From Pyropia haitanensis (Eukaryota; Rhodophyta; Bangiophyceae; Bangiales; Bangiaceae), in NCBI GenBank assembly GCA_008729055.1, contig SDUX01000009.1, positions 876,806 through 940,805 on the forward strand: DNA of 64,000 nucleotides, in the 5' to 3' direction. Below the pieces are notes generated by a model. That model saw only the letters and a list, made by a program, of their open reading frames with translations. It did no database searches and had not been told where the DNA came from. The position numbers and the translations under genes were made by a program. Below are positions 502 to 19,155 of this stretch, piece after piece. Every line of letters begins with the position of its first letter. Position 1 is the first letter of the stretch.

Positions 502-741
502 GATCGAGGGTTGCGGCGGGCGCGCGCGCGCCTCTTCTGGGCACGCGACGGCGTTCTCGCCCCGCTTCTCCCTGCTCGTCAGGTCTAAACGTATCCTTCT
601 TTGTCCCGCTTACTTGCCATAGTCTTGGCACTGCGGTTACGGGTCTGTGCGTCAACCCTCCCCCCTGATTACGGTACCCTGTGGACACCCGACTTGCCAC
701 ACTCGCACACTCGCACCAGACTCGCAAAGGCAAGAGTGTCC

Positions 742-788
742 AAGGAAAAAAAAAAGCCCCGTACCACAGGGGCAAAAAAAAACCTTTT
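742..788 (-). promoter_or_regulatory. ENE-like U-tract/hairpin element in the transposase 3'UTR
   Basis: Read on the minus strand, 12 nt after the transposase stop: AAAAGG, U9, GCCCC, an 8-nt loop (UGUGGUAC), GGGGC, U10, CCUU. This gives a lower AAGG/CCUU stem, a near-symmetric U-rich internal loop and an upper GC stem, the fold of expression-and-nuclear-retention elements that clamp a poly(A) tail in a triple helix. The same design recurs after two other genes (5844-5885 and 6381-6421) with different loop sequences and the stem kept. Assignment is by structure only. Confidence 0.6.
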
Positions 789-800
789 GTATGCTCTCAG

Positions 801-2291
801 TCACAAGTACGGGGCCAGCAGCTTCTCCCGTTCCGCCCAGACATGCTCAGCCAGATCATCCCTCAGCGCAACGTGCTCCCGCTCCGACCGCACCTCCCGC
901 CAAGCAAGCATGGCGCGTACATAGGGGGACTGGGCAATCGGCACCACAGCCGGCGGCGGGATACCGAGAGCGGGGAGTACCCCACCGCCCCCCAGCCCAG
1001 CGGCCGGCCCGGCCGCAGCAGCACCCCCACCGCCAGGTCCCCCAGCGCCGGCGAAGGTCCCATCCATGGCGGCACCCCCAGCACCGCCAGCGGTTGCCCC
1101 ACTCACCGCCGCACCAGCACCGTACCCCGTCCGCGTGCGGGAAAAGTACCCGTCCCGCCGCATCTCAGTCACCATGTTGTGCAAAATGCACACGGCCTTG
1201 GCCACAGTGGTAATCTGCGGGACTGTCCCCATCCGGGCGGGGTGGAGGGCCACGTGAAACCGCGCCGTCAGGACAGCGTACAGCCGCTCGGCGTCCTTCC
1301 GCACCGCCTCCTGGAGGCGGTTGAACGTCTTCTGCTTTCTGGTGGTGGTCGTCGGGTAAGGGCGCACAGAGAAAGCGTAGTGAGCATAAATGGAGTCCAC
1401 CAGATAGTAGAGCAGCGTGCGCGCGCGACCGTTTGCAGTAAAAGTGAACTTGCGGGGCGGCCACAGCCCGGCGGTCACGTCCTGGTACAACGGGGACTGC
1501 TGCAGCACATTGAGGTCGTGAAAGCTCCCCGGGGCGCCCACGAAAAGATGCCAGATGTACAGGTCCTCATCACACACAGTCTCCATAATGATGGTCCGCC
1601 GCTGCTTGCGGTTTTGGTATATCCCCGCCAGGCCTTTGGGGCATGCCCGCCACTCCCAGTGGGAACAGTCCAAAGACCCCATACAGCCCGGGAGGCCGCG
1701 CTCAGCGTTGCGGCGCAATATGGTAGTCAGCTCCTCGTCGTTGGGTGGGCGCAGATAGAGGGGCTCATACTCCGAAACAATAAACTCAACCAGTTTCCTC
1801 GTCGCAACGTCAACAGTGGAGCGGGCGAGGCGTACGTACTCATCCGCTCGGTCAGCAGCTTCCCCATACGCTAACACTCGAAACGCGGCCACCACCTTTT
1901 CCAGTGGGTGGGCCTGCGGCCGCCCGGTGGCGTGAACGGCCTGGCGGAACCCCGGGAGGTCGCGAACGGCCCGGTAAATGCGCACGAAAACAGACCGCGG
2001 CACCCGGAAGCGCCGCTCAAAATCGTCCTCGTCGTAGATCGGCGGCTCCCCGTTCACCCCGAAGTAATCCCTCAAAATGCAGTAGAGGCCCATTGCAAAG
2101 TTACGCTGCTTGTTGGGGCGCCGTCCAGGCACAGAGCCCCGATAGCGCCGGCGCCCCTGGCAGTGCGATGCCTGCGCGCGCACGCGCCAGCGTCGCAACA
2201 CAGCAAGGTGCGCGGCCACAGCGGTGCCGATCTCCACGTCCTCAGTGTCCTCCAATAGGGCATTGGCGCTCAGGTCCACAAAGTCCGCCAT
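801..2291 (-). CDS. PIF/Harbinger DDE transposase
   Basis: 496-residue transposase of the plant-transposon-protein/DDE_Tnp4 type, which would cut and rejoin the element ends in the nucleus with its Myb-type partner. Conserved blocks are GSLDCSHWEW (first Asp, D208), YLVDSIYAHY (second Asp, D299) and KDAERLYAVL (Glu, E335), a DD35E spacing; the C-terminus is Gly/Ala-rich. The frame is open upstream to 2660, but the Met at 2291 is chosen because the paralogue at 4358-5803 starts at the equivalent position and the proteins align from there (ADFVDLSANALLEDTED against AEDLSLLDVEALLQDAED). All catalytic residues are present and the frame is intact, so it may be active. A 3' ENE-like element follows within 12 nt. 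Confidence 0.9.
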   Translation of the reverse strand: MADFVDLSANALLEDTEDVEIGTAVAAHLAVLRRWRVRAQASHCQGRRRYRGSVPGRRPNKQRNFAMGLYCILRDYFGVNGEPPIYDEDDFERRFRVPRSVFVRIYRAVRDLPGFRQAVHATGRPQAHPLEKVVAAFRVLAYGEAADRADEYVRLARSTVDVATRKLVEFIVSEYEPLYLRPPNDEELTTILRRNAERGLPGCMGSLDCSHWEWRACPKGLAGIYQNRKQRRTIIMETVCDEDLYIWHLFVGAPGSFHDLNVLQQSPLYQDVTAGLWPPRKFTFTANGRARTLLYYLVDSIYAHYAFSVRPYPTTTTRKQKTFNRLQEAVRKDAERLYAVLTARFHVALHPARMGTVPQITTVAKAVCILHNMVTEMRRDGYFSRTRTGYGAGAAVSGATAGGAGGAAMDGTFAGAGGPGGGGAAAAGPAAGLGGGGVLPALGIPPPAVVPIAQSPYVRAMLAWREVRSEREHVALRDDLAEHVWAEREKLLAPYL

Positions 2292-3361
2292 GGCAGGGCG
2301 GTGGAGCAGGGTGCGAGTGGGAGCGGTCAGGGCGAGCGGGAGCAAGACGAGCGCCACGACGGCGGAGGCGGGAGGCGCAGTGATGTGCGCACCCACCAGA
2401 ACGGGCTTGCAGGGCAGCCGGGCCGCCCAGCTGTCCCTATCCGCTGACCGCCCCACCCGACCAGCAGCGGGCTCTGACCCGGGTCCCACCGTTGCCCCTA
2501 ATGGGGCCACACCCCCCCACCAGCGCGCAATCTGCGCGCCTGGAGTATCTGGGGCCCCCAATCCGCCCACAGCCCTCCCGCCAGCCCATCGGCCCCGGTC
2601 CACCCAGGGCACCCAATATGGCCGCCACCCCCCTGTCCCCCCCCCCCCCCCCCAGGACACGAACGGTCACCAGTCTCGGAATGCGGCGGCCCCACGCGGC
2701 AGGCGAAAAAAATCGGCCGCGTCGTGCCAACCGCCACCCTCGGAAACAGTGGCGTGCGGGCCGCCAACCGCACTGTCGTCCCCCCCCCCCCCTCCCGGCA
2801 GGCAGAATAATGGGACCTGACTACCCCAGAAAACACTGGCGTGAACTGCGGTCTCGTCGTTCACCCGCTGGATTGGTGGCGGGGCGCATCTCCCGACGTA
2901 CATGACGTGGCCCGCCCTGCAGTGGACCATGCAACGATCTGGCTGCTGGCCGTTTTCGTGTTGCGGCGGCACGAAAAGTGGACCGATCGAAGGGGCTTGG
3001 TGCACATTTTCAACGATGACGATCTGCTTGAGCCTCTTTTTCATCATCGATTGACCCTCTCTTTCCGCGATCGTCCACAGCCACGTTTCAGTCACCCCAT
3101 TGGTCCGATTTCGTTTCACAGGTCGCCAACAGGATGGGGATGGTCCCGCTCGCTCCCCATTTTCGCACGAAATGGGGCGCAGGAGAGACCAACCCCATCT
3201 TGCGATCCGAATATGCAGAGTACTTACCAAAAATATATGAATCAGATTCGGCATATATGGCCTGCCGTTGGGGCGTCATGTGGCCGTTTGTATTGACTGC
3301 TGAGCGTTCGAACCCCATCCAGAAAATATGAGAGCCACGTGTACGTATTCGCGACCATCCT
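2292..3361. other. Subterminal region of the first Harbinger element
   Basis: Upstream of the minus-strand transposase and ending at the element's terminus. No convincing coding sequence. It holds a homopolymer-rich part (2640-2790), A/T-richer sequence after 3000 and one long imperfect inverted repeat (3133-3199). The promoter of the transposase should lie here, but no clear TATA box was identified. Confidence 0.4.
3133..3199. repeat. Imperfect 32-bp inverted repeat
   Basis: Left arm 3133-3165 begins GATGGGGATGGTCCC; right arm 3168-3199 read in reverse begins GATGGGGTTGGTCTC. Both end in CCCCATTT-CG around a 2-base centre. It could be a MITE-like remnant, or a subterminal hairpin of the Harbinger element, since it lies within 250 bp of its end. 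Confidence 0.55.
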
Positions 3362-3384
3362 GACATTGTTGGATGTGCTCTGAG
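3362..3384 (-). repeat. Terminal inverted repeat, first Harbinger element
   Basis: Reverse complement starts CTCAGAGCACATCCAACAAT. It matches the 23-bp TIR of the second element at 19 of 23 positions and overlaps that TIR by five bases, creating a palindrome around GTGCTCTGAGAGCAC. Confidence 0.6.
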
Positions 3385-3402
3385 AGCACACCCAACCACG
3401 TC
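3380..3402 (+). repeat. Left terminal inverted repeat, second Harbinger element
   Basis: Starts CTGAGAGCACACCCAACCAC. It is a perfect 23-bp inverted match to 9985-10007. The exact outermost base and the 3-bp target duplication could not be fixed, because the left flank is itself a TIR of the neighbouring element. Confidence 0.85.
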
Positions 3403-4357
3403 AACCCCATCGGGAATAAGCAAACGTGGCACGTAATTGGACCGCGAATCGGCTTAAAACGGCATCAAATCTCTGTTCTGGCTGGTTTCAAGATTGCGGG
3501 CGGTCACATAGTGACGTCGACGGAAGGATCTCCACGTTCTCGGATCGGATTCGACGAAACCCAATTCATGTAAGTCCTCCCGGGTTTCGGGCATGTTTGG
3601 GGCCCCGTTGGGGAATGGGAATGGGGACACCCCAATCTGGTCGGAAATGGGCCATCCCCATCCCCATTCCCCATTCTCGCGGGCTGGTTGGGCCTCGACC
3701 ACGTGTCCGATCGTCGCCGCATGGCAATTTTTTGCAATCTGAATCTGACCGTGCACGATCGGTGACGACCGCAGCACGATCGCAGGCGCTTCGGGGCCCC
3801 CATCGGGCTCCGCGAAGTGGGGCGAATGGTCGGCGGGTAGCACTCGCGTGACAACCACAACAGGCACGTGGCGGCTGCCCGCTGTGCCCGCGCCACTGGC
3901 ATGGGGCGAGGGGCACACAGGCGGCGTGTCGGCCGGCGGTTGCGCAGCACCACAAACCGTTCCTGCGAACCCAGTCGCGTGGCGTCCGCGGCCGCGGTGG
4001 CGCGCCGCCACAGCAGCCACTGGCAGTGATGTGGCCATGTGGGGTGTCGGTTGTGGCGTGCCCTCCCGAGTCTGTCCGCGTTCCGGCGTACGGGGAAGTG
4101 CTCTCTTTTTCTATTGGACGACCGGCCCATTGCTGGAGGGCGGGACGGGGTGCGAGGTGCGAGGGACATCGACAGCGGGGGCGGGGCGGGGAAGAAATCT
4201 GATTGGTTGAGCGCTGTTTCGGGGGCCACAGATTCTCGGCCGCGCGCTGGGGTCAGCTGTGATCGTGGTGGGTGCCCACGGTCGTGACCCCGACCGGCGC
4301 CATCACCGTCGTCGTGGCCATCACGCTCCCGCGCGCGTTTTTTGGGACCCGCACACC
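3403..4357. other. 5' region of the Harbinger transposase gene
   Basis: Non-coding by inspection. Contains the 3610-3672 inverted repeat. From about 4050 a plus-strand open frame leads into the transposase but shows no conserved sequence before the Met at 4358. Promoter elements not identified. Confidence 0.4.
3610..3672. repeat. 18-bp near-perfect inverted repeat
   Basis: Left arm GGGGAATGGGAATGGGGA (3610-3627) and right arm TCCCCATCCCCATTCCCC (3655-3672) match at 17 of 18 positions with a 27-base spacer. It lies about 230 bp inside the left end of the Harbinger element and resembles the composition of the 3133-3199 repeat at the mirror position in the other element. Confidence 0.55.
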
Positions 4358-5803
4358 ATGGCTGAGGACCTATCGCTCTTGGACGTGGAGGCTCTCTTGC
4401 AGGATGCTGAGGACATGGAAATTGCGGAAGCTGTGGCTGCCCATCTGACCGTGCTGCACCACTGGAGGACGAGGAAGAGAGCTGCCCGCGTTGGCGGCGT
4501 GCGGCGGTACCACGGATCTGTTCTTGCACGGCGGCCCAACAAGCAGCGTAACTTTGCGAGGGGGTTGCGCAACATTCTGATCGACTACTTTGGGGTGGCA
4601 GGGAATCCGCCTGTGTATGACGAGGATGATTTTGAGCGTCGCTTTCGCGTGCCGCGATCTGTGTTTGTGCGTGTGTATCGGGCTGTGAAGGACCAGCCTG
4701 GTTTCAAGCAGGCCATTGATGCCACCGGCCGACCTCGGGCGCACCCGCTCCAGAAGCTGGTCGCTGCTTTTCGCGTGCTGGCTTATGGGGAGTCCACTGA
4801 TCGTCCCGATGAGTATTGCCGTATCTCTCGCTCGACGGTGGACAATTCTGTGCGTGACCTGGTCTCCTATGTCGTGGATCTTTTTGGACCTATGTATTTG
4901 CGCCAGCCAAACGCCGAGGAGCTGACCGTCATGCTTAAGCGGAGCGCGGAGCGGGGGATGCCCCGCTGCATTGGATCACTTGATTGCTCTCACTGGGAGT
5001 GGCGGGCGTGTCCCAAAGGCATGCAGGGGTCATTTCAGAACAGGAAGGGGCGCCGATCTATCGTCATGGAGGCGGTGTGTGACGAGGACCTGTACATCTG
5101 GCACCTTTTTGTCGGTTGCCCCGGCAGTATGAATGACATCAACGTGCTGCAGCAGTCGCCGCTGTACCAGGACGTCACGGCCGGTCTGTGGCCGCCGCGG
5201 GACCAGCCCTTCACTGTCAATGGGGTCACACGCACGCTGTTGTACTATCTGGTGGATAAGATATACCCCCACTACGCGTTTTTTGTGCAGGCGTATGCCA
5301 ACCCTGACACGGACAAGAAGCGGATCTTCAACCGGCTGCAGGAGGCGCTGAGGAAGGACGCAGAGAGGCTGTACGCTGTACTGACGGCGCGCTGGCACAT
5401 TGCTCTACATCCTGCGCGGTACGCCACCGTCCAGCGGATCACACTGGTTGTGAAGGCCGTGGCTATTTTGCACAATATGGTGACTGAGGTACGGCGGGGC
5501 GGATATTTGTCTCGTCAACGTGCGCGGGAGGAAGCTGGAGGGGCGGGTGGACTGGGGGGGGGGGCTGGAGTTCCTGCTCCCGGGGTTGGGGCACCCGGCG
5601 GCGGGGATCTGGGCGGCCTCCCCCCTCTGGCCCATCCCCCCCCCGCTGTTCAACCCCTAGGGCAGCTGCCGGTTGATTCCTTTTTGCGGGCTGCGCAGGC
5701 GTGGAAGGAGGTGCGGAATCAAACCGCGCACGTTGCTTTGCGCAATGACCTGGCGGAGCACATCTATAAGAACCGAGCGGCACTTCTGGAGCACTACCTG
5801 TGA
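4358..5803 (+). CDS. PIF/Harbinger DDE transposase
   Basis: 481-residue transposase, a close paralogue of the minus-strand protein at 801-2291 (long shared blocks such as YDEDDFERRFRVPRSVFVR and VLQQSPLYQDVTAGLWPPR). Catalytic triad by family alignment: D209 in GSLDCSHWEW, D300 in LVDKIYP and E336 in DAERLYAVL, spacing DD35E. The N-terminal third (roughly residues 50-150) has the region upstream of the catalytic core seen in plant-transposon-protein family members; the C-terminus is Gly/Pro-rich and ends with a conserved short block. The open frame begins at 4259, but Met at 4358 fits the paralogue and follows ACACC. Expected to act in the nucleus with the Myb-type protein of the same element. 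The 3'UTR has an ENE-like element starting 40 nt after the stop. Confidence 0.92.
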   Translation: MAEDLSLLDVEALLQDAEDMEIAEAVAAHLTVLHHWRTRKRAARVGGVRRYHGSVLARRPNKQRNFARGLRNILIDYFGVAGNPPVYDEDDFERRFRVPRSVFVRVYRAVKDQPGFKQAIDATGRPRAHPLQKLVAAFRVLAYGESTDRPDEYCRISRSTVDNSVRDLVSYVVDLFGPMYLRQPNAEELTVMLKRSAERGMPRCIGSLDCSHWEWRACPKGMQGSFQNRKGRRSIVMEAVCDEDLYIWHLFVGCPGSMNDINVLQQSPLYQDVTAGLWPPRDQPFTVNGVTRTLLYYLVDKIYPHYAFFVQAYANPDTDKKRIFNRLQEALRKDAERLYAVLTARWHIALHPARYATVQRITLVVKAVAILHNMVTEVRRGGYLSRQRAREEAGGAGGLGGGAGVPAPGVGAPGGGDLGGLPPLAHPPPAVQPLGQLPVDSFLRAAQAWKEVRNQTAHVALRNDLAEHIYKNRAALLEHYL

Positions 5804-5843
5804 GTGTCTGTTGAGTCTGCTGGGACGGTTGTGGCATCAATAG

Positions 5844-5885
5844 AAAGGTTTTTTTTCCCCGTTGGGCAGGGGTTTTTTTTTCCTT
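5844..5885 (+). promoter_or_regulatory. ENE-like U-tract/hairpin element in the transposase 3'UTR
   Basis: AAAGG, U8, CCCC, an 8-nt loop (GUUGGGCA), GGGG, U9, CCUU, all in the sense of the transposase mRNA. Lower stem AAGG/CCUU, opposing U tracts, upper CCCC/GGGG stem. It differs from the 742-788 copy in loop sequence and in one closing pair of the upper stem, while keeping tract lengths and loop size. Confidence 0.62.
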
Positions 5886-6380
5886 GGATCTTTTTGCCAT
5901 ACTGCATCAGCGTGCGTCTCCGGCACGTGTCCGTCAGCATCAGCGCGGGGTAGGCCCGGTGGCCTTTGCCAAAATGGCTGGGGACAGTGGCAGGGGTGGG
6001 GGGGGGCGTCGGCGGCCGCCGCCGTCATGATGGAAGTTCGTGGTGGGAAGGGAGGGCAACACGAGAGAGGGGACTTTTAGTAGAGGCGGCGGCCTCCTGA
6101 GCGGGGTGGGGGAGTGGCGGTAGCGACGGGCGCCTTAGTGCGGTGCGGCGTAGGGGGGGAGGGCCAGCAGTGGCCGCCTCTGCGCGAGAGCGTAGGGGGG
6201 GGGGGGGTGTGGCTCCTCTCGCGTCCTGTTCCCCCCACCCGTCGCTGTGGACGCCACCGCGCTGCCGCGGGGTGCGCGCTGCACGAGTCCCTGTCCTCTC
6301 AGCCTCTCACGTGACTTTCCCCTTCGCCTTCTATAGACTGAAAGGGACGCAGATGCCCACAGGCAGGTGACAAAGTAAGT
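5886..6380. other. Intergenic core between convergent Harbinger genes
   Basis: About 500 bp between the two ENE-like elements. GC-rich with poly-G runs (around 6195). No gene recognised; probably overlapping 3' ends and spacer. Confidence 0.4.
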
Positions 6381-6421
6381 AGGAAAAAAAAAACCCTGCC
6401 GAATGGGAAAAAAAAACCTTT
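6381..6421 (-). promoter_or_regulatory. ENE-like U-tract/hairpin element in the Myb-gene 3'UTR
   Basis: Minus-strand reading: AAAGG, U9, CCC, an 8-nt loop (AUUCGGCA), GGG, U10, CCU. It begins about 146 nt after the stop of the Myb-type gene. Upper stem is 3 bp here, lower stem AGG/CCU. It is an inverted copy of the 5844-5885 element, so both convergent transcripts of the transposon would carry the same structure. Confidence 0.6.
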
Positions 6422-6567
6422 GCTCATGCACTGCTACTACTACAGGTACGGTACGGCCGCAGGTACTGCGACTGCTACAGGTCCAACCGCTCAAACAGGT
6501 ACAACGCGTCCATGGCAATCAACAAAAAAAACAATAGACAAACGGAACAGCAAAAGCGATTGTGGCA

Positions 6568-8073
6568 CTAGGCACTGTCCGAGTCGGTCGCGAACGACGA
6601 CTCAGACGACATGTCCTCCAGCCGAGGAGGGGCACCAGGGGAGGCCTCGCTGCCAGAGTCAGAGAGAGGCACGGTAGTGCGCAGCGCGGCGTTGAGGCGT
6701 TTGGCTGCGGCAGCGGCTTTGCGCATCTGCGACTCCGTGCCGCGTGACCGCTTCTTCGGCTTGCCGGCTTGGCCACAGGCTGACGGGCGAACGAGAGACG
6801 GGGTGCGACCCCGCCCGCGCATCGTGGCCGCAGCTGGGACTGGAGCGAGGGGAGGGGGGTCAGAGTTGGCCGCTTCAGCAGCAACAGGCGCGGTGGGAGC
6901 GGGTGCAGAGGGCGGCACCACCGCCACAGCAGGTCCATCAGGTCCAACAGCACCGGCGGTGGGCGGTCCAGGTACCACCCAGACCGGCGGGGCCTCAGGA
7001 GGAGGGGGGGGCGGCCGCTCCCAGTCTTCATCGTCAACGATCTCCTGCACTGCAGGTCCAACGGTAGTGGTAGCCGTCCCGGCCGAGGTTGTGGCGGCAT
7101 CGCTGGTGTCAAGAGTGATGCCCGCCGCAGCCAGCGCAGCACGAGCTTTGGCCTGGCGAAAAATCTTAGCCTCCTCAGTAAAACGCATCTCGGGTAGATT
7201 GAAGAGAATAATCGACGATCGCTCCTTGGATGCGTTGGCGATGGCCTCCAGCGCGGCCGTGCTTGCCTTCATCTGCCGGGATATGCTCAGCTCCTCCGCT
7301 TTCTGCTTCTTTGCTGCCTTGCTGCCAATGGGGCGGCGCTCAAAAGGGCGGACGGCGCGCGACTTGACGGTCGCCCCAGCACCACCACCCGCACCAGCGC
7401 CACCAGTACCGCCAGCACCACCCGCACCGCCAGCACCACCCGCACCACCAGAACCACCCTCGCCGCCAGCGCCAGCAGACTGGCCAGCACCAGCGGCACG
7501 GCCCGAGTCACCGTCCTCAGCGTCTCCAGAGTCGTCGTCGTCGTCGATGTCGCTGTCGTCCTCGTCCTCGTCGCCAGTAAAAAGCCCAGCAGCAAGCGAA
7601 CCAGCAGCACCGCTCCACTTGTCGTGGCCGCGCATGACCTTCCAGCAGGGCACCCACTTTTCGAGGTGGTAGCTCTTCCGCTTGTCCTCCGCCGTGGCAG
7701 TGCCGTCCAGGCGCCGCTGGTGGGCCTGGATCGCCTGGTACACGGGCTGGCCCTTGCTGTGGGCCAGAGCTCCCATAATCATTGCGGCCTCATCAGGGTT
7801 GCCGGTCAGGTCCATCCGCTGCACAGCTAGCCAGGAAGACGCAAACGCGCAGACGCCCTTCTTGGCCTTCCCAAGCACCTTCTTGACCGCGCTCACAGTC
7901 CGCCGCACGTAGTCCACATTCCCCATAACCGCCTCGTCATACGTCTCCGTCACAGCCGCCCAGAACTCGGCAGTCCGCTGGTCGGTCCCCTTGATAGGGT
8001 CGTTGCTGACCGCCAAAAAAGTCTCACACAGAACGGACAACTCCTCCTTGGTCCACCCCCGCTGGGATCCCAT
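6568..8073 (-). CDS. Harbinger Myb/SANT-type accessory protein
   Basis: 501-residue protein starting MGSQRGWTKEELSVL. The N-terminal ~90 residues (W at 7, FW and two later aromatic/Trp positions) have the trihelix/Myb-SANT pattern of the Harbinger second ORF, the family often named NAM-associated or GST-T3-like in plants. Such proteins bind the element termini and carry the transposase into the nucleus. Then come a conserved Lys/Trp-rich block (YHLEKWVPCWKVMRGHDKW), an acidic run of Asp/Glu, a long Gly/Ala/Gly-Thr low-complexity linker, a basic segment and a coiled-coil-like stretch with SISRQMKASTAALEAIANAS. Met at 8073 is used although the frame stays open upstream, because conserved sequence begins there. 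It lies 10 nt after a separate proline-rich ORF. Confidence 0.82.
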   Translation of the reverse strand: MGSQRGWTKEELSVLCETFLAVSNDPIKGTDQRTAEFWAAVTETYDEAVMGNVDYVRRTVSAVKKVLGKAKKGVCAFASSWLAVQRMDLTGNPDEAAMIMGALAHSKGQPVYQAIQAHQRRLDGTATAEDKRKSYHLEKWVPCWKVMRGHDKWSGAAGSLAAGLFTGDEDEDDSDIDDDDDSGDAEDGDSGRAAGAGQSAGAGGEGGSGGAGGAGGAGGAGGTGGAGAGGGAGATVKSRAVRPFERRPIGSKAAKKQKAEELSISRQMKASTAALEAIANASKERSSIILFNLPEMRFTEEAKIFRQAKARAALAAAGITLDTSDAATTSAGTATTTVGPAVQEIVDDEDWERPPPPPPEAPPVWVVPGPPTAGAVGPDGPAVAVVPPSAPAPTAPVAAEAANSDPPPLAPVPAAATMRGRGRTPSLVRPSACGQAGKPKKRSRGTESQMRKAAAAAKRLNAALRTTVPLSDSGSEASPGAPPRLEDMSSESSFATDSDSA

Positions 8074-8083
8074 CGTGGCAAAG

Positions 8084-8818
8084 TCAATAGCGCGGCGGGG
8101 GGCGCGAGGGGCGCCTGTCTGGGCGGCGAGAGCGATCGTCGCCGTCACCCCCACGGCCGTCGGCAGGAGGCGGAGGGGCGCGCGGAGGCGGCGGCGGCGG
8201 GGGCGGCGGCGGCGGCGGCGGCGGCGGCGGGGACAGTGATGGTATTGGAGGAGGCGGGTGGCGAGGGAGGTAGTCCCGTCCGTCGTCGTGCGGCCCGGAA
8301 AACCGCTGCTGCGGCGGCGGACGGTGACGGCGTGGGTCAGCGGGTGGACCGTAGTTAGGCGGCCCACCCGCACGTCGGTAGGCGGGCGGCGACCACCCAC
8401 CGCGGTCACGGTTGCGATGCCACGGTGGGGTGGGCAGGTACTCGTCGTAGGGAGGGGGCGGCACCCAGCCGTTCTCGTCCTCAGCGTCCGCGTAGTAGGG
8501 GGGAGGACGTCGGTCGACCGTGCGCTCCCGCTCGAGCTCCAGAAGGGGACGGCGCGCGGGCATCCGGGGAGATGAGGGCCGGGGAGGGGGCGACGGGCGA
8601 CGGTGGGCCGGCCCGCCTCCAAAAGTACGCCAGCGTAGAGGGCGCGCCGGCGACAGGCACGGGCACTCGTCTGCCTCATGGCAGTGGCAGGAGCAGGTAG
8701 GGCGAGGTGGGGGCCCCCTCCAGCGGTCGAACTCATCGGGATAGGGGCCGCGGGGATCGCGCAGCGGCCGCTTGCCGCTCGCTGCGTACCGAAGGTAGTC
8801 GTCGTAACGGTGGGCCAT
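8084..8818 (-). CDS. Proline/arginine/tyrosine-rich ORF of the Harbinger element
   Basis: 244 residues, starting MAHRYDDYLRYAASGKRP and ending RPPPRY. Rich in Pro, Arg, Tyr and Asp, with a small Cys/His cluster (CSCHCHEADECPC, residues about 41-53), and a poly-Pro run of about 16 encoded by a GGC repeat at 8178-8230. No domain recognised. Its non-random composition, unlike the Arg/Ala/Gly shadows on the other frames, argues that it is translated. It stops 10 nt before the Met of the Myb-type protein, in a different frame: either a bicistronic mRNA, or the N-terminal part of one protein split by an indel or an intron. Confidence 0.5.
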   Translation of the reverse strand: MAHRYDDYLRYAASGKRPLRDPRGPYPDEFDRWRGPPPRPTCSCHCHEADECPCLSPARPLRWRTFGGGPAHRRPSPPPRPSSPRMPARRPLLELERERTVDRRPPPYYADAEDENGWVPPPPYDEYLPTPPWHRNRDRGGWSPPAYRRAGGPPNYGPPADPRRHRPPPQQRFSGPHDDGRDYLPRHPPPPIPSLSPPPPPPPPPPPPPPPPRAPPPPADGRGGDGDDRSRRPDRRPSRPPPRY

Positions 8819-9984
8819 GGTGTGTCGGGTGGTGCGGGGAAGGCGGGCGCCACCCGCACGCGGGAAGCGTGGCTGGGGCCACCCGCGCGCGGGCAAAGAG
8901 AAGGCCGCCCGCGCAAAAGAGATAGCGCGCGCGGGTCGAAGGGAACGGACGGGAAGGAGACGGTCACGACAACGGCGGATGACGGGTCGTGACGGTGGCG
9001 GATCGCGCCCGCCCGCCCGCCCTATGGGCGCGGTTGCCACACCCCCCCCTCTCAGACAGCGATCCGAGGGGGGTTGCAAAATCGTCGAGAGGGGGGGCCG
9101 CCACCCCCCACTAGAACGCAAACCGCGGGGGGGTGCAACCGCCCCCGCCCAGAACGCGGCCCCGAGGAACCGCCACCAGGCCCACCCCCCCGGAAGCACA
9201 ATCATGAAGGGGGGCGGCTGCGCCCTCTCCCCACCCACCACGAGCACAGGAGGCGAACCTCCTGTTCCCCCCGCTGGGGGGGCGGGCCTGCCGCCCCTCG
9301 CGCTCGCCAGGCTGCTGCCCCCGGCGCGGCGAGGCGGGACCACCCTCCACACGACTGCTGTGGGTGCGCTGACCACTGCCCGTCGCGCTTCGCGCGGGAC
9401 GGCGCCGAAGAGGCGGACCGTCTGTTTGGGTCTCGCGTACACGCCTCGCGGCGGCCCCAGCGGCCAACGTGTCTGCACGCCGCTGCAATGGCGCTACATG
9501 ATTGGACGATGCAACCTTTGAACGTGAGGGGTGCATCCTCCCAGTGCGCGGTGAAATGACAGAGCCGCGTCGTGGCACACGACGGTCCACGTTTCAAGAA
9601 AATTGACCCCCGACGACCGCTACTCGATCGCCCGAGATAGCGCCAGATACACCAAGACCGTCTATGATCGCTGCCATGTCGTGCAAAATTGCGCTCCAAC
9701 GGGCGATGATCGCTCCACAATCGCCGGTCGATTGCGACGGATCTCGAGAGATACTCAGCAGACAGAGGAGCCACGTCAAACAAGTAAAGAACACATTTAC
9801 AAATGGAAAAAGCTGGCACGTCGCTGTGTGTGTCGCGACCCAATCATCGGCGTTCGAAAGCAGCCGTTCTACACAAGTCCTTCCGAAACGGTTGGGGATC
9901 GATATATAGAAATGGGCACTCCACTCACATGCCGCCACGTGCGATACGTGGCATCCTAGAATGAATACTTGGGGCGTTGGGATG
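8819..9984. other. 5' region of the Harbinger Myb transcript and right subterminal region
   Basis: GC-rich to 9480, then A/T-richer from 9490 to 9960. Open frames here give only Arg/Pro-rich sequence without recognisable motifs. Promoter of the minus-strand transposon genes is expected here. Confidence 0.4.
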
Positions 9985-18176: not shown

Positions 18177-19155
18177 CCGACCAGCCGGGGGGGGGGGGGG
18201 GGGGGCGCGCTGGCGCTGCAAACGACCCCACGGGTAGCTGCAGGAGACGTCGGGGATGCAGCTGAGCGGACGCGGCGTGACACGAGCAACGATGCAGTAG
18301 AGAGCTTCAGCAGGAAGGATCTGGGAAGAGATCTCGGTAATTTCTCGGTAGCGTGGCAGCAGAATTTTCTTACCAGAACTGAGGCTGCAGGACCTTGACA
18401 CCGGTTGACAGCTCTCGGTGAGGCGCGTCGAGTTACGTAGCTAATTCGGAACAGTTCAGAGCTCAGAATCATCTGTTTTTTTTTGTCATGCGCCACATAC
18501 AAAGCCAAAAACAAAAAAGTATTGATTTAATTTATAGATCAATCAAAGCGGGAACAAAAAAACGTTAGGTTTTGGCCAACTTTGGCCTCTGACGACATGC
18601 TGGGGGCGAGGGGGGAATGCACCCTGCCCAGGCAGGGCGAGCGATGAATTTCCGCCGCCAAGGCGGGGCCGGCCGGCATCGTGGGCAGAGGTCGGTGAGC
18701 CTTTGCGCTTCCGACGGGGTAAATTGATGGCGCGTTGATGCACGCCGCCGCAGCTGGCGCAGGCACGCAGCGTGCTCCCCCCCCCCCTCCCCCACCGCCC
18801 CCCCCAGCGTCACCCGCCGCCACTTCCAGGCCGACGCGAGCGGTGGCGCCCCGCGCAGCCGCCGCCGCCGCCGCCGCCGCCCTCCCCGCCGCGTCCTCCC
18901 CGCCACCCCACCGGCACGCACCCCCCCCCCCCCCTCCTCCTCCCCTCCCCCCCGCCCGCCTTTTGACAATTTGATCTTGGCGGCGGGCCGGTCGGCCGCC
19001 TGCCCGCCCGGGCCGGTCCGCCGCCTGCCCGCCCGGCCCTGCCGCCCCGCCCGCCCTTCTGCCCGCCCGCGGCGGAGGGGCCGTGCCCGCCGGCGCGGCG
19101 GCGTCGGCGGGGCCCGCCGCATCAGCCACGCCGCGGCCGGCCGGTCGGTCGACGG
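18177..19155. other. Intergenic region upstream of the SPP-like gene
   Basis: Contains an A/T-rich island (18420-18560) unlike its surroundings, with a T9 run at 18477, then very C-rich sequence. No gene recognised. Plausible promoter region of the SPP-like gene. Confidence 0.4.

Follow-up and report, generated by a model that had tools for sequence, protein, structure and literature searches.

An element for nuclear expression (ENE) is an RNA hairpin in which two facing U tracts form an internal loop and clamp a poly(A) tail in a U-A-U triple helix, the 3' tract contributing Watson-Crick pairs and the 5' tract Hoogsteen pairs. The U tracts of described ENEs are roughly 5 nt long, and in TWIFB1 two short U loops are stacked to make a double ENE. 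In the survey of plant and fungal transposon ENEs by Tycowski, Shu and Steitz from 2016 (Cell Rep 15:1266), reportedly no predicted stack exceeded five triples. The subject of this work is a group of ENE-like elements with longer U tracts, located downstream of Harbinger transposon genes in the red alga Pyropia haitanensis. Three of them lie in the stretch of 64,000 nt that was analysed (contig SDUX01000009.1, positions 876,806 to 940,805 of the forward strand), referred to below as the window.

According to PMC12501189, the 2016 survey comprised approximately 200 ENE motifs, most of them from plants and fungi. The same source describes the ENE of the Arabidopsis element Evade (Copia93), in which U-rich internal loops bordered by G-C pairs associate with A20 in vitro to give a triplex; this ENE stabilises the RNA and favours transposition, and the G-C pairs adjoining the U tracts are needed. 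TWIFB1 is a rice hAT transposon with a double ENE (PMC10855403), and the 3' triple helix of MALAT1 contains nine U-A-U triples and one C-G-C triple (PMC11411715).

The Pyropia elements resemble the surveyed transposon ENEs, as these are described, in belonging to transposon mRNAs, in having facing U tracts between stems with G-C pairs and in the many hairpin sequences. They differ in having a single U loop with an uninterrupted 8-12 U on each side, and in being found on both genes of red-algal Harbinger transposons. With Evade they share U tracts that, as predicted here, lie in the 3' untranslated region and have G-C pairs next to them, and in Evade tail protection favours transposition; Evade, however, is a long terminal repeat retrotransposon with four U-rich tracts, whereas the elements described here belong to DNA transposons and have two tracts each. 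A poly(A) clamp on a DNA transposon mRNA, predicted here, is present in TWIFB1, and one long loop would offer about the same total of U residues as the two short loops of that element. The parse used in this work yields two tracts per element and was not designed to detect more, as in a double-domain ENE with its two stacked U loops. MALAT1 is comparable in its long triplex, here predicted from anatomy, but its A-rich tract is encoded, while a run of at least eight A was found in only 2 of 24 downstream stretches of the present set, in which most U tracts are uninterrupted. PIF/Harbinger transposons likewise combine a PF04827/PF13359 transposase with a second open reading frame (ORF); the difference here is the convergent arrangement of the two genes with an RNA element after each.

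No account of single-loop elements of 8-10 U on both Harbinger genes of a red alga was found in the literature searched, which did not cover the contents of the 2016 survey. Searches joining ENE or triple helix with algae or red alga returned nothing, and Pyropia with Harbinger nothing relevant by title. A preliminary description of the window, made from its sequence alone, had proposed that their presence on both genes of one transposon in a probable red alga would be new. ENEs in transposon RNAs are already known as a kind; what may be new is where these occur and the length of their tracts around a single loop.

ENE-like elements in the window

An RNA element that acts in cis and in the manner of an ENE is probably present on both mRNAs of these Harbinger transposons, where it would hold poly(A) in a U-A-U triple helix. 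In the window, elements 2 and 3 stand one on each of the convergent genes of one transposon, and element 1 belongs to a different transposase copy (Table 1). All three lie in the sense strand, with the GG ahead of the 5' U tract at 16, 43 and 149 nt from the stop codon for elements 1, 2 and 3, respectively, and the same spacing was found in other copies of the families of elements 2 and 3. The preliminary description had located the three sites, placed them after stop codons at 801, 5803 and 6568 and attributed two of them to both genes of one transposon, and direct reading agreed with it in all these respects. The lower stem that it gave for the third site had to be corrected: the sequence there reads CCUA instead of CCUU, which leaves 3 bp (AGG/CCU).

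Table 1. Positions of the elements and genes discussed, numbered from the first letter of the window
Feature	Position	Strand	Description
Element 1	742-786	-	3' of transposase 1; AAAAGG-U9-GCCCC-UGUGGUAC-GGGGC-U10-CCUUGG in sense
Element 1, parts	U9 782-774; GCCCC 773-769; GGGGC 760-756; U10 755-746	-	loop UGUGGUAC
Element 2	5845-5885	+	3' of transposase 2; GAAAGG-U8-CCCC-GUUGGGCA-GGGG-U9-CCUUGG in sense
Element 2, parts	U8 5849-5856; CCCC 5857-5860; loop 5861-5868; GGGG 5869-5872; U9 5873-5881	+	loop GUUGGGCA
Element 3	6381-6419	-	3' of partner gene; CAAAGG-U9-CCC-AUUCGGCA-GGG-U10-CCUACU in sense
Element 3, parts	U9 6416-6408; CCC 6407-6405; loop 6397-6404; GGG 6396-6394; U10 6393-6384	-	loop AUUCGGCA
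Transposase 1 (Harbinger)	801-2660	-	long ORF ending ...LLAPYL*; PF04827 6.5e-54, PF13359 9.2e-15
Transposase 2 (Harbinger)	4259-5803	+	single long ORF, likely start 4358 (by eye); PF04827 3.5e-60, PF13359 2.2e-16
Partner gene, putative second Harbinger ORF	6568-8073	-	501 aa from ATG at 8073; within ORF 6568-8967; convergent with transposase 2

The pattern AGGT7N{8,30}T7CC matched the window, whose GC content is about 68 %, at exactly three places, 744-785 (-), 5846-5883 (+) and 6382-6419 (-), and was absent from 100 dinucleotide shuffles. In the minimum free energy and centroid folds of the three elements both stems were formed with an open U loop between them, and a few extra outer pairs appeared at element 3. 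Facing U tracts forming the internal loop of one RNA hairpin, which is the arrangement characteristic of an ENE, were observed in these 3 folds and in 27 distinct parsed elements.

A covariance-model search, suggested in the preliminary description, was carried out with model R1, built from eight elements including elements 2 and 3 but without element 1. All three sites were recovered: element 1, from outside the model set, with 45.5 bits (E 5e-7), and elements 2 and 3, both in the model set, with 71.4 and 69.0 bits. The rest of the window gave one chance-level match (E 5.7). No Rfam family matched the window at the gathering score (whether Rfam includes an ENE model was not checked), and a relaxed Rfam search of positions 600-6700 gave six matches, none of them on the elements.

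Occurrence in the genome

In the genome searched (53 Mb, 136 contigs) the pattern AGGT8N{8,20}T8CC gave 45 matches in comparison to 1 for the same pattern read backwards. The looser GGT6N{6,36}T6CC gave 78 against 34 backwards, plain T runs being among the 78. The Harbinger transposase set comprised 53 loci, obtained by merging 59 PF04827 matches, and 36 of them have a sense element within 4.5 kb downstream among the matches listed. Reading of the sequences added C8:4725739, in which the 3' tract has one U to A change, and C6:2611260, of which only the 3' half lies within the stretch read, raising the number to 38 of the 53. Of the other 15 loci, three were read past the stop and are without the element, two were read less far and 10 were unread (7 of these 10 have stops in the domain).

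A second, convergent match is present at 26 of the 53 loci, and 25 have both, among the matches listed; model R1 added one convergent element, in L053, whose tract is interrupted. With the L024 gene as query, tblastn showed partner-gene homologues upstream of 17 elements genome-wide, 14 belonging to the 26 convergent ones and 3 lying elsewhere; the approximately 170-590 nt searched upstream of the other 12 contained no partner match.

The association with Harbinger genes was also evident from a pattern with two G or C on each side of the spacer (T7-SS..SS-T7): 53 of its 101 matches (pooled from two scans, among those listed) are located in the 4.5 kb that follow a transposase, against an expected 0.46 %. 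A stem of at least 3 pairs is present in 49 of the 53 transposase-linked matches and in 9 of the 48 elsewhere (Fisher P 1.2e-14, among the matches listed and with related copies that are not independent). Four of these nine are Harbinger pieces as judged by the neighbouring gene. Two more are in convergent orientation to a transposase and approximately 5 kb downstream of it, and the remaining three, the surroundings of which were not read, showed no link of either sort. The element directly follows a transposase end of the type ...LLxxYL* in 7 of 24 rows and the acidic end of the partner in 6; several other rows represent a wrong frame or the partner gene.

The presence of such hairpins between convergent genes raised the question of a transcription terminator or a DNA boundary element (poly(dA:dT), or a hairpin with a U run), an explanation that we consider very unlikely. 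An antisense convergent element does lie 497-518 nt downstream in 6 of 25 rows (one of them non-Harbinger), and a hairpin followed by T10 resembles an intrinsic terminator, the scan for which picked element 1 and gave 15 sites versus 4.7 in shuffles. For a terminator, however, the 5' U tract and the outer stem would be superfluous. Furthermore, a palindromic DNA site or a two-way terminator would pair an A tract with a T tract, so T tracts on both sides of the dyad make sense in a single strand. The gene-sense orientation at 38 of the 53 transposases, including the UUCG-loop family that is without a convergent match among the matches listed, is also at variance with a terminator.

The matches at C11:4353020 and C27:69234 were rejected; they lie inside a reading frame that by eye resembles another transposase and have a 1-bp stem. 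Among 2.9 million viral contigs AAGGT8N{8,26}T8CCT matched two near-identical AT-rich contigs, inside an ORF and without a GC hairpin, and these matches were judged to be due to chance. A four-copy repeat with GG-U8/9-CCCCGGG-U7-CC near GCCA...UGGC was noted at C9:4357807, C9:5881558, C11:379656 and C40:13721 (L088-L091). Its stem has 2 bp, and no gene was recognisable by eye in the stretches read, where no search for families was made.

Paired changes in the upper stem

The upper stem is maintained through paired changes, as expected for an ENE. The 32 distinct Harbinger-linked hairpins, broken ones included, contain 117 contiguous pairs in comparison to 54.1 when halves were swapped between them, and 26 of the 32 have at least 3 contiguous pairs in comparison to 12.2 (in both cases 0 of 20,000 swaps reached the observed value); for this comparison what remained of interrupted 5' tracts was removed from three hairpins, and two matches that overlapped others were excluded. 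A smaller, hand-picked set of 22 hairpins, from which most near-identical or broken variants were omitted, gave 91 pairs versus 32.6 swapped, with C-G, G-C, A-U and U-A pairs all present in the upper stems. The hairpins extend from CC-UUCG-GG to forms such as GCCACCCC/GGGGUGGC and a stem of 12 pairs, some of them G-U. The covariation score of alignment A5 was 0.325, versus 0.190 shuffled and at most 0.135 when slid; A5 (32 rows, 29 distinct, one of them chance-level) was fitted to the model and leans towards it. The MAFFT alignments A1 and A4 ignore structure and misplace the stems, and served for display only. The proposal made from the three window sites, that the upper stem changes in pairs while the U tracts are mostly kept, was thus borne out in other copies and families.

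The pairing also bears on the possibility that the two elements of a transposon are kept as an inverted repeat, with read-through or convergent mRNAs pairing through U and antisense A tracts to give double-stranded RNA or a self-made triplex. An inverted-repeat search of positions 2600-9600 did show that elements 2 and 3 constitute a 41-nt inverted repeat, 90 % complementary and 496 nt apart, and a read-through transcript would have A9/A10 approximately 500 nt downstream of its own U tracts. In other families, however, the paired elements differ in their hairpins (CCCTGACGGG with CCCTCCGGGG; GCCGGCGACGGC with a 27-nt hairpin; CACCCCTCGGGGTG with CCCCGTTGGGCAGGG) and each keeps its own internal pairing, and several transposases have only a sense element among the matches listed. 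This makes the inverted-repeat explanation highly improbable.

An 8-nt loop near RUUSGGCA (GUUGGGCA, AUUCGGCA, GCUGGGCA, GUUCGGCA) is repeatedly found on the partner side in several families, and also after some of the transposase genes. It may have a function of its own, or one element of a transposon may have acquired it from the other by copying.

Conservation of the U tracts and the lower stem

Tract lengths were determined for 27 distinct elements parsed from 32 rows. Three rows were duplicates, and L053:3468, with its interrupted tract, and the chance match at window position 18501 were unparsed; interrupted tracts were counted at full length, and for L098 and L099, both of them incomplete matches, the lengths are minimum values. 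The 5' tract is 9 nt long in 12 elements (the mode) and 8-12 nt in 26, the 3' tract is 10 nt in 16 (the mode) and 8-12 nt in 26, and the outliers are one tract of 7 and one of 18 nt. The lower stem has at least 3 pairs in 21 of the 27 elements, 2 in three and none in three, two of which are L098 and L099, in which AAAGG was found on reading to be absent.

These features persist over considerable divergence. Thirty-two of the transposase domains were clustered and form 11 clusters at 85 % identity, and a sense element is present in 7 of these clusters. Identity between representatives of the element-bearing clusters is 56-82 %, and by eye no relationship is apparent in their 3' sequences except for the element.

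U-rich elements near 3' ends are common sites for proteins. It is conceivable that the hairpin displays the tracts to a protein that binds single-stranded U, or to a cleavage/polyadenylation factor, and that no triple helix forms, and the partner-side matches L098 and L099, which keep the U tracts and the hairpin without AAAGG, would be compatible with such a role. Single-strand binding, however, does not need two tracts of matching length on opposite sides of a stem that is closed by G-C pairs, and the tracts stay near 9 and 10 nt while the surrounding sequence changes. For these reasons we regard protein binding without a triplex as unlikely.

A short motif near (A)CUUUGC recurs by eye 3' of the element in several, not all, families, e.g. 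at window positions 5886-5898 and in L098 and L099, and is sometimes complementary to a GCAAAG just ahead of the 5' U tract. In the family of C9:86824 (L083) and C8:4642010 (L081) a further U8 is present approximately 17 nt downstream of the element and may belong to a second U loop.

Proposed mode of action

In the mechanism suggested by the ENE-like anatomy, the poly(A) tail of the same mRNA, added at a site presumed to lie downstream of the element, would thread into the U-rich loop. As in known ENEs, Watson-Crick pairs would join the tail to the 3' U tract and Hoogsteen pairs to the 5' tract. The result would be a stack of as many as 8-10 U-A-U triples, with G-C pairs at its ends. The poly(A) tail is the likely A partner, since no encoded run of at least eight A was found in 22 of 24 Harbinger downstream stretches (600 nt, or up to any antisense convergent element). 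A tail hidden in this way from deadenylases might slow the decay of the transposon mRNAs, and the larger amount of protein would favour transposition.

A broader proposal is more tentative, namely that the Harbinger transposons of red algae evolved a long single-loop ENE on both mRNAs, in which one clamp of 8-10 layers does the job of the plant double ENE, and that the clade as a whole relies on clamping. If so, few natural U-A-U stacks without interruption would be longer. If the clamp works as proposed, poly(A) clamping would be a survival strategy of red-algal DNA transposons too, as it is of plant and fungal elements, and it would operate on the two mRNAs of the same transposon. The 32 distinct hairpins, with U tracts near 9 and 10 nt, provide a set of natural variants for studying the length limits of the triplex, the stem requirements and deadenylation as a limit on transposon activity. 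The elements also serve as a simple signature for locating Harbinger families in seaweed genomes.

Several observations weigh against an ENE function. The folding energies of the three window elements are ordinary for their composition (z -1.19, 0.22 and -0.13), so stability by itself proves nothing. Six of the 32 distinct hairpins have fewer than 3 contiguous pairs. The lower stem, AGG/CCU, is near-invariant and hence hardly tested by covariation, and one of its pairs departs from the standard ones in 13 of 27 cells of A5, an effect due in part to misalignment. The tract modes of 9 and 10 exceed the roughly 5 nt and, reportedly, at most five triples that are usual, though not defining, for described ENEs. 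Within three families there were 6 changes per 55 U-tract columns, 60 per 456 columns of the 5' flank and 165 per 606 of the 3' flank (a fourth family, A_my, was misparsed and left out), so that the U-tract rate is not clearly different from that of the 5' flank. Finally, the four transposase clusters without a match are mutual closest relatives (66-79 % identical), and one member each of three of them showed no facing U tracts in the 600, 291 and 600 nt past the stop.

At the loci of this sister clade, C10:610706, C9:4998588, C40:108230 and C6:695279 (L052/L100, L062, L064 and L073), no element stands on the transposase gene (three 3' ends read). Two of these loci have a U-tract hairpin approximately 5 kb downstream in convergent orientation.

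The within-family rates, together with the near-identity of copies within a family and the broken tracts or stems of some copies, are what would be expected if the elements were functionless repeats of one ancestral sequence. Between families, however, the flanks look unalike, yet the U tracts, the paired upper stem and the place after the stop persist. Broken sense elements are also commoner beside transposases with stops or split frames than beside intact ones (3 of 7 versus 2 of 30, P 0.04), a weak, post hoc comparison with hand-set classes. Shared descent alone is hardly credible in view of these differences. Random loss of tracts or stems in other copies, named in the preliminary description as evidence that would speak against an ENE, was not the pattern seen, although some copies are indeed broken.

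Transposon genes, host and other features of the window

Both transposase ORFs scored above the cut-offs of PF04827 and PF13359, which identifies them as Harbinger-type DDE transposases, in agreement with the preliminary description. Among the named homologues of transposase 2, a protein of Pyropia yezoensis ranks first (85 % identity). The partner ORF, which ends at 6568, resembles the second gene that Harbinger elements usually have and is 41 % identical over 320 columns to the gene preceding the element in L024. Its earlier designation as Myb-type was supported only in part: a match to PF14303 (NAM-associated) was obtained, but below threshold (E 0.00031, 22.1 bits versus a cut-off of 27.7). 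The host, already presumed to be a red alga, is one: 11 phycobilisome-linker matches were found on eight contigs of the genome.

Approximately 11 kb upstream of the window, at C1:865863 (L024), lies a partner gene with an element of 7-bp stem (GCAUCCC/GGGAUGC), convergent with transposase 1 and approximately 12 kb away from it. The transposon comprising the L024 partner gene and transposase 1 may have been split by an insertion.

Upstream of transposase 2, at 3609-3673, a short inverted repeat has 26-nt arms, a 13-nt spacer and sub-threshold Rfam matches to microRNA precursors. The segment 52001-56000 shows a strong strand asymmetry in comparison to the remainder of the window (AT skew -0.29, GC skew 0.12).

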